From positions 1 to 49,208 of IMG/VR virus record IMGVR_UViG_3300031885_003861: a DNA stretch of 49,208 bases; one strand, written 5' to 3'. Under the pieces are notes generated by a model, which saw only the letters and a list, made by a program, of their open reading frames with translations, made no database searches and was not told the origin of the DNA. Source of the DNA: a virus. Below, piece after piece: positions 1-49,208 of the stretch. The position numbers and the translations under genes were made by a program. The first letter of the stretch is position 1. Each line of letters begins with the position of its first letter.

Positions 1-1533
1 CTACTGATAGAGAAACTGGATGTCGACGATCCTGCCTTCGCGGTCGACCGTGGCCTGGCGCACCAGGCCGTGGATGATCGTCCAGAGCTCGTCGCCCGTG
101 GCGTGCGGCAGCAGTCCGGCCACATCGCGCAGCCGCCCCCTGACCTCCTCGGCCCGCGCCACCAGGCGGTCGCCGGCGGCCAGGGCGACCCGCAGCTCGT
201 CGGCCCTGGCGCGCAGTTGGCGATCCTCCTCCTGGAGGGTAGCGACCCGGCCCTTGAGGTCGCCGAGGTCCAATGTCTCGTCCTCGAACGCCGCGTACCA
301 ACGATCTAGCTTCTTGGCTATCTCGGCCCGCCGCGCCTCGACCTCCGCGAGGTCGTCGGCCAGCCGGCCGCCAGCCGCGCCCAGCTCGCCCACCGCCTTG
401 GCCACCGCCTGCTCCGCCATCGCTTCGTCGGCGACGTACTCTCCCAGGGCGGCCATGAACGTCGCCTCGACCCGGGGGCCGTTGCGGTAGCCGGCGCGGC
501 AGGGGGCCGTCACCATGTGGCGGGGTTCGCCCAAGTGATTGTAGCAGACGTAGTGTCGCAGGTGCTTCTTTGGCCGATCCGGGTAGTTCGACCAGGCCCG
601 CTTCGAGCGCATCCGCCCGCCGCACTCGGCGCAGCGCAGGATGCCGGAGAGCAGCGCGGCGCGCTTGGGCGCCCAGCCGCCCTTGCGCTCGCGGGCCGTC
701 TCCTGGGCGCGCGCCCAGGTCGCCTCCGTCACCAAGGCCTCGTGCTTGCCGGGGTACACCTCGCGGGCGCTGTGCACCAGGTGGACCGAGCGACCGGCGT
801 ACATGGGGTTTTTGAGGATGTAGCGCACGGTGGCGCAGTGCCAACCCAGCTTGGCGCCCTGGGGAGGAGGGTGGCCCTCGTCGGTCAGGCGCTGGGCGAT
901 GGTGTCGTGCCCCAGACCCTCGCCGATGTAGAGCTGAAAGATACGGCGCACCACGGGCGCCGTGACCGGGTCGGGCACGAGGTACGGCGTGCCGGCGGCC
1001 TTGCGGTAGCCGTAGGTGACGCGGCCCGAGCCGTGCCAGCGCCCCTGGCGAGCCGCCTCGCGCTTGCCCATCCTCACGCGCTCGGCGATGGTCTCGCGCT
1101 CGAGCTGCGCGAAGACCGACAACAGACCGACCATGGCCTTACCGAAGGGGATCAACGTGTCAAAGGGCTCGGTGGCGCTCTTGAACCCTACGCCAGCGGG
1201 CTCGAACACCTCCTCCAGGAGGTGGAGCACATCGCGCTGGCGGCGGCTGAGGCGGTCGAGCTTGTACACCAGCACGAGGTCGAGGCGGCCGCCGGCGACA
1301 TCCTGCAGCAGGCGCTGCATGGCGGGGCGCTTGAGGTTTTTCCCCGAGTAGCCGTCATCGATATACACTTCGGCGACGTCCCACCCCTGCGAGCGACAGA
1401 ATGCCACCAGCGCCTCGCGCTGGGCAGGCAGCGAGACGCCCTCACGCGCCTGCTCGTCCGTCGAGACGCGCAGGTACAGGCCGGCGCGCGCCGGCCCCTG
1501 GTTTGTTGTGTTGTCCGCGCGCTTCGACACCAT
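1..1533 (-). CDS. Large serine recombinase (prophage integrase)
   Basis: A 510-residue large serine integrase that would carry out site-specific integration and excision. The N-terminal resolvase domain (about residues 16-160) has the catalytic serine at Ser24 in LRVSTDEQ and the conserved YKLDRLSR segment (residues 90-97). A recombinase domain follows, then a zinc ribbon with Cys301, Cys304, Cys330 and Cys345, and a long Ala/Glu/Arg-rich coiled coil at about 385-465, the usual order for phage large serine integrases. The start is ATG and the stop codon is the first three bases of the window, so the gene is complete but anything downstream, including an att site, is out of view. It is the distal gene of the leftward lysogeny module. 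Family assignment is secure; the attachment site is unknown. Confidence 0.97.
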   Translation of the reverse strand: MVSKRADNTTNQGPARAGLYLRVSTDEQAREGVSLPAQREALVAFCRSQGWDVAEVYIDDGYSGKNLKRPAMQRLLQDVAGGRLDLVLVYKLDRLSRRQRDVLHLLEEVFEPAGVGFKSATEPFDTLIPFGKAMVGLLSVFAQLERETIAERVRMGKREAARQGRWHGSGRVTYGYRKAAGTPYLVPDPVTAPVVRRIFQLYIGEGLGHDTIAQRLTDEGHPPPQGAKLGWHCATVRYILKNPMYAGRSVHLVHSAREVYPGKHEALVTEATWARAQETARERKGGWAPKRAALLSGILRCAECGGRMRSKRAWSNYPDRPKKHLRHYVCYNHLGEPRHMVTAPCRAGYRNGPRVEATFMAALGEYVADEAMAEQAVAKAVGELGAAGGRLADDLAEVEARRAEIAKKLDRWYAAFEDETLDLGDLKGRVATLQEEDRQLRARADELRVALAAGDRLVARAEEVRGRLRDVAGLLPHATGDELWTIIHGLVRQATVDREGRIVDIQFLYQ

Positions 1534-22012: not shown

Positions 22013-22642
22013 ATGGAGATGGGATGGGTGAGCGACCTTTGGATGATCGGCGGAAGCAGCCTTCGAGTTATGACTGGCCCTTCGCCTTGGCTCCAGTTGA
22101 TCATTGGCCCAATCATGGGCGCGGCTGCTGGCGCTATGGCGTCTTGGTTGTGGGATATCGTCAAGAGTTGCAGGACAAACAGGAGGGTGATGAGAAGTGC
22201 CGCGCAAGCGGTAGGCATAGAGCTGATGCACGCCAAAGATACGGTACTAGGACAAAAAGCGCTACTAAAGGAGCAGCCCACAACCGTCATACCGAGCCCC
22301 GTATTGGCATACCCCGATCTGTGGTATGAGCATCGCTTGACGCTGAACGGCTGTTTGTCGAGTTATGAGTCTGCCATCATCGATGGATACTTCTTGAATG
22401 CTCGGGAGTTCGACCAAGCTGCAAGAACAGCATATCAGAACCGTTGGTTGGGCAGCAATGATGAACAGCTAATCGACGAGATCTGCAAGTTGTCTCGTGT
22501 GCCATTCAGGCGTCTACTAGAGGATGATGAGGCAATTGATAAGGTAGCCAAGAAGCTCTGCAGAATCGCCGGCGTGACACACCTGGGCGCCGTCAAGGTA
22601 AGCAGCAAAGATGGGGTGCCACACGATGTTGGGGGTACTTGA
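22013..22642 (+). CDS. Orphan membrane-anchored protein (moron candidate)
   Basis: A 209-residue protein with one hydrophobic helix near the N-terminus (WLQLIIGPIMGAAAGAMASW, about residues 26-45) and a soluble, mainly helical remainder. It is a single-gene unit between two terminators (21909 and 22737), and its bases and codons are much poorer in G+C than its neighbours, the pattern of a recently acquired moron. The start ATG 22013 is the first after an in-frame stop; GTG 22028, with GGAG upstream, is an alternative. No family recognised. A prophage-expressed anti-phage or exclusion role is an inference. Confidence 0.65.
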   Translation: MEMGWVSDLWMIGGSSLRVMTGPSPWLQLIIGPIMGAAAGAMASWLWDIVKSCRTNRRVMRSAAQAVGIELMHAKDTVLGQKALLKEQPTTVIPSPVLAYPDLWYEHRLTLNGCLSSYESAIIDGYFLNAREFDQAARTAYQNRWLGSNDEQLIDEICKLSRVPFRRLLEDDEAIDKVAKKLCRIAGVTHLGAVKVSSKDGVPHDVGGT

Positions 22643-44460: not shown

Positions 44461-45366
44461 ATGGGTATACTTGTCATGCCCGCAGTGGCCACGCGCCGTC
44501 GACTTGTCAAGGTCGCCGAGTCCGCCGCTTATGGTGGCATCATCTTCGCCTTGGCTGCTCTTGATGGTTTCATTTACTGCGCCGGCGCCACAACACGGAC
44601 AGTATGGAAGATCAACCCCGCCGACATGAGTAAAGTTGCCGAGTCCGCCGACTACGGCGGCACCATCTGCGCCCTAGCTGTGCTTGACGGCTACATCTAC
44701 TGCGGCGGTCAGACAACAGAGAAAGTCTGGAAGATCAACCCTGCCGACATGAGTAAGGTTGCTGAGTCCGCCGACTACGGCGGCACCATCCTCGCTTTAG
44801 CTGTGCTTGACGGCTACATCTACTGCGGCGGTGGCGGACAACAAAAAGTATGGAAGTTAAATGCCAGCAACCTAGTTACAGTTGCTATATCCGCCGCTTG
44901 TGACGACGACATCTGGTGCTTGGCCGCTCTCAACGGCTACGTCTACTGCAGTGGCGGCATAACCGAGAGGGTTTGGAAGCTCAACGCCAGCAATTTGGTC
45001 AAAGTCGACGAGTCCGCGAATTTCGGCGGCTACATCCGTGCCTTGGCTGTTCTTGGCGGTTACATCTACCACAGCGGCGGCCACTACGTCAGCGCAACGG
45101 AGCCGGTCTATAAGATCGACCCTGCCTTCATGAACACGGTTGGCCAGTCCGTCGAAGGCGGCTATGTCCGTGCCCTGACTGTTCGCGATGGTTTCGTCTA
45201 CCGCACTGACTATGCAACCTCCAGCGCCTGGAAACTAAACGCTGGTGACTTGGCCAAGGCGGCTGCGTCTGGTGACTGTAGCAGCACCATGTATGGCCTG
45301 GCTGCGCTTGATGGTTTCATCTACTACGGCGGCAGCGCCGGCAAGGTCGGGAAGCTGACTAGTTAG
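44461..45366 (+). CDS. Seven-repeat propeller-like fibre protein
   Basis: A 301-residue protein made of seven units of about 40 residues, each like SKVAESADYGGTICALAVLD plus GYIYCGGQTTEKVWKINPAD. Each unit ends in a VWKIN/VWKLN strand, so the whole chain fits a seven-bladed beta propeller. The first units are almost identical and the later ones diverge. It is poorer in G+C than the fibre gene before it, suggesting separate acquisition. ATG 44461 follows the fibre stop directly. A receptor-binding role is inferred from place and fold. Confidence 0.75.
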   Translation: MGILVMPAVATRRRLVKVAESAAYGGIIFALAALDGFIYCAGATTRTVWKINPADMSKVAESADYGGTICALAVLDGYIYCGGQTTEKVWKINPADMSKVAESADYGGTILALAVLDGYIYCGGGGQQKVWKLNASNLVTVAISAACDDDIWCLAALNGYVYCSGGITERVWKLNASNLVKVDESANFGGYIRALAVLGGYIYHSGGHYVSATEPVYKIDPAFMNTVGQSVEGGYVRALTVRDGFVYRTDYATSSAWKLNAGDLAKAAASGDCSSTMYGLAALDGFIYYGGSAGKVGKLTS

Positions 45367-46117: not shown

Positions 46118-47146
46118 ATGACGTTGACCAAGCTCCTCCCCGAGTTCACCGCGGCCGGCTCGCGTTGCTGGGCCGCCGAGGCGGCACCGAGCGACCTCGG
46201 CGCGTTCGTGCCCCCTGGGGGGCCGATGGTGGCGGCGAAGGCGGTCGGCCCGGCTGGCGCCCGCCTCGTCATGACCGCCACGTTCTACGACCCCAAGAGC
46301 GGCGCCCTGTGCGGCTTGCTGCGTGGCAGTAGTGGGCAATGGGGCTGGCAGCCCGCGGGCCGGCCGGCCCTGGCGGTGATCGGCGGCCGGGCAGCCATCC
46401 TGCCAGTGGCGGTCGACCCGCCGGGGGCCGAGCTCGTGGTCGGCGGCGGCCCGGTGCTGCTCGCCGGCGGCAGCGTCGTCTGGCGCAACTCCCACACCCA
46501 GGGCAAGTACAGCGGCCTGCGCCCCGATGCGCGCCTGGCCAGAGCGGCGGTGGGCATCCGCGCCGACGGCATGGTCGTCGCCCTGGTGGCCGCCGCGCTC
46601 AGCCTCCAAGGCCTGGCCGAGGTCCTGCGGGACAAGCTGGCCTGTCTCGACGCCATGGCGCTTGACGGCGGCGGGTCGGCGACCATCGCCTGGGATGGCA
46701 AGGTGCTTTTCGGCGGTGCGCGGGCGCTGCCGTGCTACCTGACTGCCGGCCCGTTGCTGGGGGACCCCGCCGCGGCCGTCCCATCGGCGCTCAATCACGT
46801 CCAGCTTTCGCCGCATTTCAGCCTCCGCGAGCTCGAGGACCCGACGACCCACGAGGTCATGGTGCACCCGCTGCTCGTCGCCCGCCTCGAGGCCGTGCGC
46901 GCCCTGGACGGCGGCCCGATCGACATCACGTCGGGCTACCGCACCCCTGAGCACAACCGTGAGGTCGGCGGCGCGCCCGACTCTTGCCACCTCAAGGGCG
47001 AGGCCGCCGACATCAAGTCCTGTAGGCCGGCCGCGCTCGCCGCGCTCTGTGAGAAGGCAGGCTTCGGGGGCATCGGCGTTTACCCCGCCCACGTTCACGC
47101 CGATGTGCGGCCCCGGCCTGCGCGGTGGACGGGCGGGCAGTGCTGA
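46118..47146 (+). CDS. Endolysin: phosphodiester glycosidase-like plus M15 peptidase
   Basis: A 342-residue protein with two domains. The N-terminal part (to about residue 220) looks like the NAGPA phosphodiester glycosidase family (RAAVGIRADGMVVALVAAAL and AMALDGGGSATIAWDGK). The C-terminal part (about 233-342) is a Peptidase M15_3 domain: HFSLREL, ITSGYRTPEHN, SCHLKGEAADI with zinc-binding His and Asp, and HVHADVRP. M15 lysins are D-Ala-D-Ala or L-Ala-D-Glu peptidases that cut the peptidoglycan stem. ATG 46118 follows GGGAGAGG. It sits between two small membrane proteins, as expected for a lysis cassette. Confidence 0.85.
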   Translation: MTLTKLLPEFTAAGSRCWAAEAAPSDLGAFVPPGGPMVAAKAVGPAGARLVMTATFYDPKSGALCGLLRGSSGQWGWQPAGRPALAVIGGRAAILPVAVDPPGAELVVGGGPVLLAGGSVVWRNSHTQGKYSGLRPDARLARAAVGIRADGMVVALVAAALSLQGLAEVLRDKLACLDAMALDGGGSATIAWDGKVLFGGARALPCYLTAGPLLGDPAAAVPSALNHVQLSPHFSLRELEDPTTHEVMVHPLLVARLEAVRALDGGPIDITSGYRTPEHNREVGGAPDSCHLKGEAADIKSCRPAALAALCEKAGFGGIGVYPAHVHADVRPRPARWTGGQC

Positions 47147-47191: not shown

Positions 47192-47440
47192 ATGGACATC
47201 GAGCTGATAGCGGGCGTTGGCGCCCTGGGTCTCATCGTCGCCGTCGTCCAGCTCATCAAGGCGGCGGGCTTCCCGTCGAAGTTCGCGGGCCTGCTAGCCG
47301 TGCTCCTGGGGCTGCTCCTGGGCCTGGCGTACACGTTCTGGAACGCGACGCCCTGGTACCAGGCGGTTATCCTGGGCTTGGCGCTGGGCCTGGCCGCGGC
47401 CGGTGCCTGGTCGACGGGGAAGAACGTGGCGGGGAAGTAG
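47192..47440 (+). CDS. Holin
   Basis: An 82-residue protein with two clear hydrophobic helices and a possible third: LIAGVGALGLIVAVVQLI (5-22), FAGLLAVLLGLLLGLAYTFW (31-50) and AVILGLALGLAAAGAW (58-73), ending in a Lys-containing tail. Size, spacing and position after the endolysin fit a class I/II holin that permeabilises the membrane. ATG 47192 follows GGGAGGTGAC. Confidence 0.8.
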   Translation: MDIELIAGVGALGLIVAVVQLIKAAGFPSKFAGLLAVLLGLLLGLAYTFWNATPWYQAVILGLALGLAAAGAWSTGKNVAGK

Positions 47441-47461: not shown

Positions 47462-47498
47462 AGGGCCTCCGCTCACCGAGCGGAGGCCCTGTTTCTTT
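47462..47498. terminator. Late operon terminator
   Basis: AGGGCCTCCGCTC (47462-47474) pairs perfectly with GAGCGGAGGCCCT (47478-47490) across a 3-base loop and is followed by GTTTCTTT. The 13-bp stem ends the late operon and separates it from the terminal two-gene unit. Confidence 0.92.
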
Positions 47499-47643
47499 AT
47501 CTATGGCCGGAGGTCAAGCACTCTCGGATATTCGCCGACCCGCTTGTCTTCCCCGACCCCCGTTGGAGGAGACTGCGCGATAATGGCGAATGGTGGACGG
47601 TGATGAACGGTGTTCCATCCCTGACCAGGGAGGAGGGGGCTGG

Positions 47644-48318
47644 GTGAAGACCCCCTTCAACGTGTATGACTTCTTCGCCATCCTCTTCCCGGGGACCCTT
47701 GCGTTGCTCCTGGCTGGCTTGGTCTGCCGGCCTGTCTGGAACTTCATTGCCGGGACCACCTCATGGGCATCGGCCGCAGTGCTGGTAGTAGTTGCATACG
47801 TTGCCGGTGAGGTGGTATCGGGGCTATCCAAGCATATAGTAGGTCGGTTCCGGGCCAAGAAAGATGTATGGGACAAGATGTCGCCCGCAGAGAGTGGTCG
47901 GCTAGAGGCTGCGCTGAGGGAGCACTATGCACTGCAGCTCTCGCCCAAGGAGTTTAGGAAGGCTCGCTTCGACCTGGCGTTCTCGCTGGTATGGAATCGT
48001 ATACCTAATTACTCAGTATTTCTTGCCCGGGCGGATCTCAACAGGTCGTTGTCGCTTCTTTGTGGGATGGCCACGATACTAGGTTTCGCTGGGGCGGTTG
48101 GGCTACCTCTTGGGGTTCAATTATGCAAAGGGCAACTTGGTGCGCTTTGCATCGTATCAGGCCTCGTCGGTGTCCTTTGTTTCTTGCGCGGCCAGTACTT
48201 CTTCGAGCTGTCGAGGAGGGTTGTCTACTACTCGGCGCTCGAGTACTTGGCCGAGAGGCAACATGGTGCAGGCGAGGGCCCGTCGACTCAAGCAAGAATG
48301 GAGGAGAATTGTCCATGA
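47644..48318 (+). CDS. Four-helix membrane protein of terminal cargo operon
   Basis: A 224-residue membrane protein. It starts KTPFNVYDFFAILFPGTLAL and has hydrophobic helices at about residues 8-28, 41-61, 136-158 and 164-181, with a central soluble loop of about 70 residues and a cytoplasmic C-terminal tail. GTG 47644 follows GGGAGGAGGGGG. Its stop overlaps the start of the hydrolase gene by four bases, so the two are coupled. It lies beyond the late terminator at the right end of the element, where cargo genes are common. The NVYDFF-x-LFPG opening recalls membrane proteins of defence islands, but I cannot name the family. Confidence 0.8.
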   Translation: MKTPFNVYDFFAILFPGTLALLLAGLVCRPVWNFIAGTTSWASAAVLVVVAYVAGEVVSGLSKHIVGRFRAKKDVWDKMSPAESGRLEAALREHYALQLSPKEFRKARFDLAFSLVWNRIPNYSVFLARADLNRSLSLLCGMATILGFAGAVGLPLGVQLCKGQLGALCIVSGLVGVLCFLRGQYFFELSRRVVYYSALEYLAERQHGAGEGPSTQARMEENCP

Positions 48319-49208
48319 GCATGGACGTTTTCATCTTTGACGTAGATCACGGGTTTGCCGGCCTTGTCGTAACGCCCACAGGACACGGCTTGATGATAGA
48401 TTGCGGCCGACATTCTTCAGGCTTCTCGCCTGCTAGCTGGATACGCGATAACATTTCCCTTAGGCCTTTTGATGGTAAGCCTCTTGCCGGACTCGTTATT
48501 ACGCATCCGCACAACGATCATATTGAAGATATCGATAACCTCTTCGGAACACCCACCGTGGCTCAGATGATTCTCGGCAAGACCCCATTACGTCCCGCCC
48601 GTGTCTGGGGCCGACAATACCAATGGAGAGAGGTTCAGCCCGTGAATTCTCAGACGAAAGCTTTCAAGACTTGTGCCGCTATGCTCGATGGTTGTGATCG
48701 TACGGTACTTCAAGCACAGCCCTCATGGGGAGTCGATGTTCTTATCTTTGGCCTTACTCCCGAGGAAGCGAAGCAGATTAGAGCATCATTTGTCAATAAC
48801 TCTAGTCTCGTCGTATCAGTCCAAGTTACTTATGGCAAGGAACAGAAGTGGCAATGGCTATTTGGCGGTGATGTGGAAACACTTGGCTGGGAACAGCTTC
48901 TTAAGATTGGATGGGCCAGTACTTTGGCCGGTATTAACTTTCTCGTAGCGCCCCATCACGGCCATGCTTCCGGCTATTGTCCAAAACTACTCCAACAAAA
49001 CCAACTTCTCGATCTCGTGGTTATATCGGCGAGAGCTGGAGACGAAGAAACGTGCGGCGACTACTACGCTAGGCATGTGCCTGTTGGTTTTGAGGTGAAT
49101 CAGAAGGGAAACTTCCGTAAAGTTGTATCCACAAGAAAGGACGGCACCATATGGTTCCACGTTGACGACAATGGGCTATGTACGTGCCGAACTGGGAGAC
49201 TGAAATAA
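48315..49208 (+). CDS. ComEC-like metallo-beta-lactamase-fold hydrolase
   Basis: A 297-residue MBL-fold enzyme. The metal motif is THPHNDHIED (His64, His66, Asp68, His69), followed by NNSSLVVSV (161-169), WLFGGDVE with Asp186 and VAPHHGHASGY (His214, His215), the order found in the soluble C-terminal hydrolase domain of ComEC-type proteins. These act on phosphodiesters, often nucleic acids. There is no signal peptide or transmembrane segment, so it is probably cytoplasmic and paired with the coupled membrane protein. The gene is far poorer in G+C than the phage core, a sign of transfer. ATG 48315 overlaps the previous stop; its stop is the last codon of the window. Confidence 0.88.
   Translation: MSMDVFIFDVDHGFAGLVVTPTGHGLMIDCGRHSSGFSPASWIRDNISLRPFDGKPLAGLVITHPHNDHIEDIDNLFGTPTVAQMILGKTPLRPARVWGRQYQWREVQPVNSQTKAFKTCAAMLDGCDRTVLQAQPSWGVDVLIFGLTPEEAKQIRASFVNNSSLVVSVQVTYGKEQKWQWLFGGDVETLGWEQLLKIGWASTLAGINFLVAPHHGHASGYCPKLLQQNQLLDLVVISARAGDEETCGDYYARHVPVGFEVNQKGNFRKVVSTRKDGTIWFHVDDNGLCTCRTGRLK

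Follow-up and report, generated by a model that had tools for sequence, protein, structure and literature searches.

A probably prophage-carried pair of a ComEC-type metallo-beta-lactamase-fold hydrolase and a four-helix membrane protein as a candidate defence module of the PDC-M48 kind

The closest described counterpart of the gene pair analysed here is PDC-M48, a candidate defence system held in PADLOC-DB 2.0 that consists of a membrane protein (PDC-M48A) and a metallo-beta-lactamase-fold (MBL) protein (PDC-M48B), and a search of the literature other than preprints found no paper describing it. The MBL domain of ComEC is a Mn-dependent nuclease/phosphodiesterase in which Asp takes the place of one motif-II His and Asn the place of the motif-III His, the Asp position being Asn in S. 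pneumoniae (PMC8579336). Hachiman, AVAST, Lamassu and DRT have each acquired a ComEC-type MBL nuclease as a module, together with a protease (PMC12799240). Membrane proteins are likewise known beside enzymes that cut nucleic acids, as Csx27 and Csx28 are accessories of Cas13b, the latter forming a pore that depolarises the membrane (PMC12669027). A preliminary description of the DNA studied here had proposed a new defence or cargo system; since this kind of pair is already in PADLOC as PDC-M48, it is not categorically new, and MBL nucleases of such a type are already known from Lamassu, AVAST, Hachiman, DRT and 6A. The locus instead adds a divergent, probably prophage-carried variant of PDC-M48.

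The window, which is the whole stretch of DNA analysed, comprises 49,208 bases and corresponds to one IMG/VR virus record in full. Its left end, where base 1 onward reads CTA, falls on the stop codon of the gene for a large serine integrase (1-1533, minus strand, phrog_95), its right end, base 49208, on that of the MBL gene, and the phage genes between them include those for terminase, portal and tape measure. Both ends of the record are therefore gene boundaries set by the boundary caller, and the prophage end at which the pair had been placed is the cut point of the record: the two genes are indeed its last, while the attachment site lies outside the view and neither site is visible within the record. 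Searches with the integrase, holin, endolysin and terminase as a route to the attachment site returned distant relatives only. Upstream of the pair on the plus strand are an endolysin gene (46118-47146, phosphodiester-glycosidase-like plus peptidase M15 by profile matches) and a holin gene (47192-47440, phrog_1299), and the lysis operon is closed ahead of the pair by an intrinsic terminator with a 13-pair stem and a T-rich tail (47462-47490, plus strand), in agreement with the strong terminator reported before. The endolysin is an unusual fusion, in which a phosphodiester-glycosidase (NAGPA) domain is joined to the M15 peptidase.

The lower G+C of the pair, first noted as 27 G/C in a stretch of 60 bases, was confirmed by count and extends to the whole genes, with values of 0.566 for the membrane protein gene and 0.499 for the MBL gene against 0.679 for the remainder of the record; the MBL gene lies below the lowest value of any other 894-base segment of the record (0.541). 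This composition, unlike that of the phage, together with a record cut at gene ends and without a visible attachment site, would also fit host chromosomal genes that lay beside the attachment site and were wrongly included by the virus-boundary caller rather than carried as prophage cargo. We consider such an origin unlikely, as the pair is on the same strand as the holin and only about 200 bases from it, and as comparable pairs occur in other virus records: in a second, unrelated prophage a pair of another class directly follows amidase and holin-like genes (L092/L200, roles assigned by eye), and in two further records a few kilobases separate the pair from a serine recombinase (L089) or from an integrase-like gene (L090, by eye). 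A host origin would in any case alter only the carrier and not the nature of the pair.

The second gene of the pair (48315-49208, plus strand) encodes a PDC-M48B-like, ComEC-type MBL-fold protein of 297 amino acids. Motif II, H64-P-H66-N-D68-H69 (48504-48521, plus strand), as well as D186 and H214-H215 were found with the same numbering as in the preliminary description, and Lactamase_B matched the protein at 1.8e-8. The PADLOC models for PDC-M48B matched it at 1.1e-18 (PDLC04674) and 2.2e-18 (PDLC04675), both with partial coverage, and matched its relatives at 1e-64 to 1e-70. Matches to two other specific models fell far under their cut-offs, namely those to ComEC_Rec2 (TIGR00361, 5e-9; 34.8 bits, cut-off 190) and to the 6A-MBL model NCBIfam NF058524 (1.5e-7; 30.9 bits, cut-off 220). 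When a profile of 63 MBL relatives was used, ComEC structures came first (5e-21), and the AlphaFold2 model of the window protein (pLDDT 86, pTM 0.89, with low confidence in the loop 86-101) had as its best structure match the ComEC MBL domain 9ic4 (E 8e-13, TM-score 0.63). By its metal-binding motifs (motif II D/H, NN.S, GD and HHG) and its modelled fold, the protein is thus a ComEC-type hydrolase of predicted activity. It shares with the ComEC MBL domain the motifs DVGxG, HxDxDH-like, NN.S, GD.E-like and HHG; it differs in that it stands alone and cytoplasmic, with HPHNDH in place of HxDxDH and without the competence channel domain, to which its four-helix partner is unrelated. It also differs from the MBL modules of Hachiman, AVAST, Lamassu and DRT, as MBLs of the window type are found without the protease and with a membrane protein or a patatin instead.

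The window MBL keeps both motif-II His. Across the 63-member alignment D68, H69, D186, H214, H215 and G216 are essentially invariant, as is the NN.S motif, whereas position 64 varies between H (34 sequences of the family) and N (56), and position 66 between H (28) and D (62). A catalytic metal site is therefore kept throughout the family, although probably not the same site in all members, and the Asn and Asp at the first two motif-II positions of most relatives imply that part of the family may be catalytically weak or may work differently. The replacement of these two His by Asn and Asp is seen in about two thirds of relatives, and all members of partner class c0 in which the motif was read are of the Asn/Asp type. 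An insertion blocking the active site, as in the HamM proenzyme, was considered and rejected, the spacing from motif II to NN.S being about the same as in ComEC.

Because the MBL has no signal peptide (and no transmembrane, or TM, segment), the enzyme is predicted to be cytoplasmic. This bears on a role in lysogenic conversion or another phage interest outside immunity, either in DNA uptake as for ComEC or on envelope phosphodiesters. The choline esterase CbpE/Pce, which was the second-best fold match of the MBL model, and the position of the pair after the lysis genes are both in keeping with such a role, but a cytoplasmic enzyme with relatives across archaea and bacteria of unlike envelopes makes it very unlikely.

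The first gene (47644-48318, plus strand) encodes a four-helix membrane protein of 224 amino acids, with a GTG start, which we place in a Csx27/PDC-M48A-like family. Its reading frame is open from an ATG at 47590, which would give a 242-aa form; the GTG at 47644 is the better start, since a Shine-Dalgarno-like GGAGGAGG is read just 5′ of it (approximately 47627-47635, plus strand) and only these 224 residues align with relatives. The four-helix description given earlier is borne out by four hydrophobic segments, beginning at residues 10, 44, 136 and 163 of the 224-aa form, and by an all-helical AlphaFold2 model (pLDDT 86). Two helical pairs flank a central loop of 73 residues that carries 15 Lys and Arg, and this loop is therefore predicted to be cytoplasmic with the N and C termini inside. 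Its alignment with the partners of related MBLs brings out a common pattern, in which a Y-D-x6-P-G motif close to the N terminus is accompanied by A-Y-x2-G and, in the second half, by the conserved Arg R134. Searches of Pfam and PHROG gave no family for it, no PADLOC family, PDC-M48A included, was found at E ≤ 1e-3, and comparison with PDB sequences, PDB folds (pores and channels included) and viral folds gave nothing significant. Fold matches of the ExbB/MotA kind had TM-scores of at most 0.3 and were rejected as helix-bundle noise.

The family assignment comes from the relatives. Partners in the same cluster match PDC-M48A (down to 1e-63, in the genome of L077), Csx27 and tm_4, the last being another Cas13b-associated membrane protein, and the Csx27 profile falls below 1e-3 for 10 of 68 partners (best 7e-7) and reaches 0.0012 for the window protein in its 242-aa form. 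The window pair thus has in common with PDC-M48 the adjacent genes and the PDC-M48B match; it differs in that partners of the Y-D-x6-P-G family match PDC-M48A while the window's own membrane protein matches no model, and in having a divergent MBL within a virus record. With type VI-B systems it shares a membrane accessory of an enzyme that cuts, or here is predicted to cut, nucleic acid and a Csx27-like profile among the partners, but no Cas13b-sized reading frame or CRISPR locus was seen beside the window pair, the neighbours of which are phage lysis genes. Csx28 is a different protein from Csx27, and the likeness here comes from the Csx27-like profile and not from structure; by analogy, this profile and the Csx28 pore would point to the partner as a membrane effector.

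The two genes are coupled by an ATGA stop/start overlap of four bases (48315-48318, plus strand), as first reported. To place this arrangement among relatives, the neighbours of the MBL were compared over 92 loci from bacteria, archaea, plasmids and virus contigs, with TM segments counted by a Kyte-Doolittle scan, so that single counts are approximate. A small membrane protein adjoins the MBL in 80 of the 92 loci, 73 by script and 7 by inspection, a few of the latter having a cut partner or a small gene or gap between. Such a partner is present in 18 of 20 MBL clusters formed at 50% identity, and it was present in all five plasmid loci fetched later (Halobacterium, Agrobacterium, Halomontanus, Halobaculum and Sphingobium) with one or no small gene between, although in Halomontanus it is apparently split. 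The membrane protein stands before or after the MBL, and the commonest spacing is the same four-base overlap (31 adjacent pairs). Among control genes from the same genomes, 6 of 120 (about 5%) encode proteins of 140-270 aa with at least two TM segments, so that an abutting partner would be expected by chance in about 10% of loci. Homologues were therefore found together and not apart or beside a known housekeeping partner. Co-inheritance across phyla, together with a ComEC nuclease domain as the nearest solved MBL structure, upholds the earlier claim of a true functional pair, and the pairing of the MBL with a membrane protein is real and ancient. The window's version is divergent, its MBL being 19-36% identical to the relatives aligned; single-sequence searches of IMG/VR with either protein found no close relatives and a profile was needed, tblastn of the MBL against sequenced phages found none, and the relative L017 gave only partial matches there, to distant ComEC-like phage MBLs.

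The membrane partners fall into four clusters of 35, 24, 8 and 3 members, between which hhalign detected no kinship (probability at most about 5%), and a single common origin for all of them was accordingly dropped. The maximum-likelihood tree of the MBLs, obtained by a quick search, has several long branches, including that of the window MBL; along it the partner class switches 16 times where the minimum is 4, and the P-G partner class is scattered over deep branches. Four MBLs from SAR202/Dehalococcoidia, which lack a membrane partner, group together with a support of 89, a value below the starred level. In each of these loci (L016:6857-7960, L027:6884-8071, L047:6871-7983 and L054:6869-7969) a patatin phospholipase with the motifs GGGxR, SGGS and DGG begins 4-19 bases after the MBL. 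In CBASS, patatins and TM proteins classically replace one another as the effectors that attack the membrane, and for this reason no other single argument speaks as strongly as the patatin exchange for the partner, and not the MBL, as effector. The parallel with CBASS carrying patatin (CapV) or TM effectors, which we draw from general knowledge, is that of one constant enzyme with interchangeable membrane-attacking effectors, the difference being that CBASS has a cyclase and the modules described here do not. These results suggest that the MBL is the constant part and the partner an exchangeable membrane-active effector.

The same results bear on the main competing explanation, in which the MBL is itself the effector, a membrane-tethered DNase of ComEC type that cuts entering phage or plasmid DNA, and the partner is an anchor or gate. 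ComEC, the nearest fold, works at the membrane, a loop rich in Lys and Arg on the cytoplasmic side could hold DNA or the enzyme, and anchors could swap freely. An anchor role leaves unexplained, however, why a soluble patatin lipase takes the partner's place in four loci, and the loss of the canonical motif-II His in most relatives would be odd for a plain nuclease, even though ComEC has D and S. pneumoniae N at one of these positions. We regard a tethered nuclease as somewhat unlikely, if the most serious of the alternatives.

The largest partner class has 35 loci, and in 15 of them a long reading frame lies directly before the MBL and is itself preceded in most of the 15 by an MBL of 384-419 aa. 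In L073, the one locus checked, the long frame contains Prok-E2_A, ThiF and Prok-JAB (E2-E1-JAB). L073:2476-7553, L007:1026-6061 and L208:1-4921 each show a 6A-type operon, made up of a long MBL and E2-E1-JAB, with another MBL and a membrane protein behind it. The host of L007 is Polaromonas naphthalenivorans, which we take to be the 'Pnap' in the list of Iyer et al. The L073 operon is the 6a operon that Iyer et al. 2006 (PMC1779556, row 6a) reported with a neighbouring MBL and that NCBIfam now names anti-phage 6A-MBL. In the accessible text of that paper no mention was seen of a second MBL or of a membrane partner, and this additional pair may extend the 6a/6A-MBL system in a way not described before. 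The 6A/6A-MBL ubiquitin-like operon thus contains an MBL related to that of the window, and the pairs of proteobacterial relatives follow such operons, but the E2-E1-JAB gene is absent from the window end and the window MBL is of the second, shorter kind.

The 6A association also bears on a further alternative, that of a toxin-antitoxin-like pair serving mainly the retention of the element, in which the MBL restrains a membrane toxin by binding it or by removing the nucleotide that activates it, until infection or the loss of the element sets the toxin free. In being small, coupled, carried by plasmids and prophages and often neighboured by toxin-antitoxin genes, the two genes have the look of such a pair. 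On the other hand, the partners come from several unrelated families and occur in both gene orders, and the link to 6A operons favours immunity over mere addiction; we judge this reading to be quite improbable.

Other copies of the pair were found on prophages, on plasmids and beside genes of known defence types, and the relatives lie near integrases, resolvases, transposases, toxin-antitoxin genes and type I R-M. In a PADLOC survey of neighbours, 72 families, mostly singletons, were matched by 144 neighbours compared with 40 by 120 control genes; enrichment in defence islands is modest relative to these same-genome controls, as most matches are single genes of generic families. A strong PDC-M48B match was present in 1 of 60 genomes of one order, namely the centre genome of the sample, and such a patchy spread is as expected for a mobile defence gene. 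Near-identical MBLs occur in Alcaligenaceae and Gallionellaceae (L040/L034), one of them beside a TrbI conjugation gene, a likeness that suggests recent transfer.

We propose that the pair is a horizontally mobile, prophage-carried defence module of the PDC-M48 kind, a reading of both role and mechanism to which we give about an even chance. In the lysogen, the cytoplasmic MBL would act on a nucleic acid or nucleotide that arises or is altered upon infection by another phage, and would trigger the four-helix partner through its product or by contact with the 73-residue cytoplasmic loop. The partner would then compromise the inner membrane, so that the infected cell is stopped before the intruder matures (abortive infection). 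A chemical messenger is an easier account than direct contact of how one enzyme family could drive several unrelated effectors; the partner class also tracks MBL clade, however, so that contact may be the route. More tentatively, the family as a whole may be a modular immune system, in which one ComEC-type hydrolase drives at least three unrelated families of membrane proteins, a Csx27-like one among them, as well as patatin, probably via a nucleotide or nucleic-acid product, and which has spread on prophages and plasmids and been captured by 6A operons as an added arm. If this modular reading is true, its signalling logic would be new next to those of CBASS, Thoeris and CARF systems.

For PDC-M48, until now a bare database entry, the survey adds partner exchange, a version with patatin and the link to 6A ubiquitin-like operons, and thereby gives it an anatomy, a constant ComEC-type MBL with a swappable membrane-active partner, and a connection to Csx27-like proteins and patatin effectors. 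Two questions become testable as a result, namely the substrate of the MBL in immunity and whether Csx27-like proteins serve as membrane effectors outside CRISPR.

Several other features were observed along the way. In the second prophage (L200:3767-4998, L092:3759-7353) the pair is followed by an opposite-strand SocA-like (DUF4065-type) protein, and a run of N falls within the MBL gene. Within the window, a gene near the tail genes (44461-45366), also of low G+C (0.57), encodes a repetitive protein with repeats of about 40 residues containing VAESADYGGTI...WKINPADMSK, which resembles a beta-propeller-type receptor or tail protein. A further gene of lower G+C (0.54), at 22013-22642, encodes a protein with a hydrophobic start among phage genes of 68% G+C and is another possible cargo gene.
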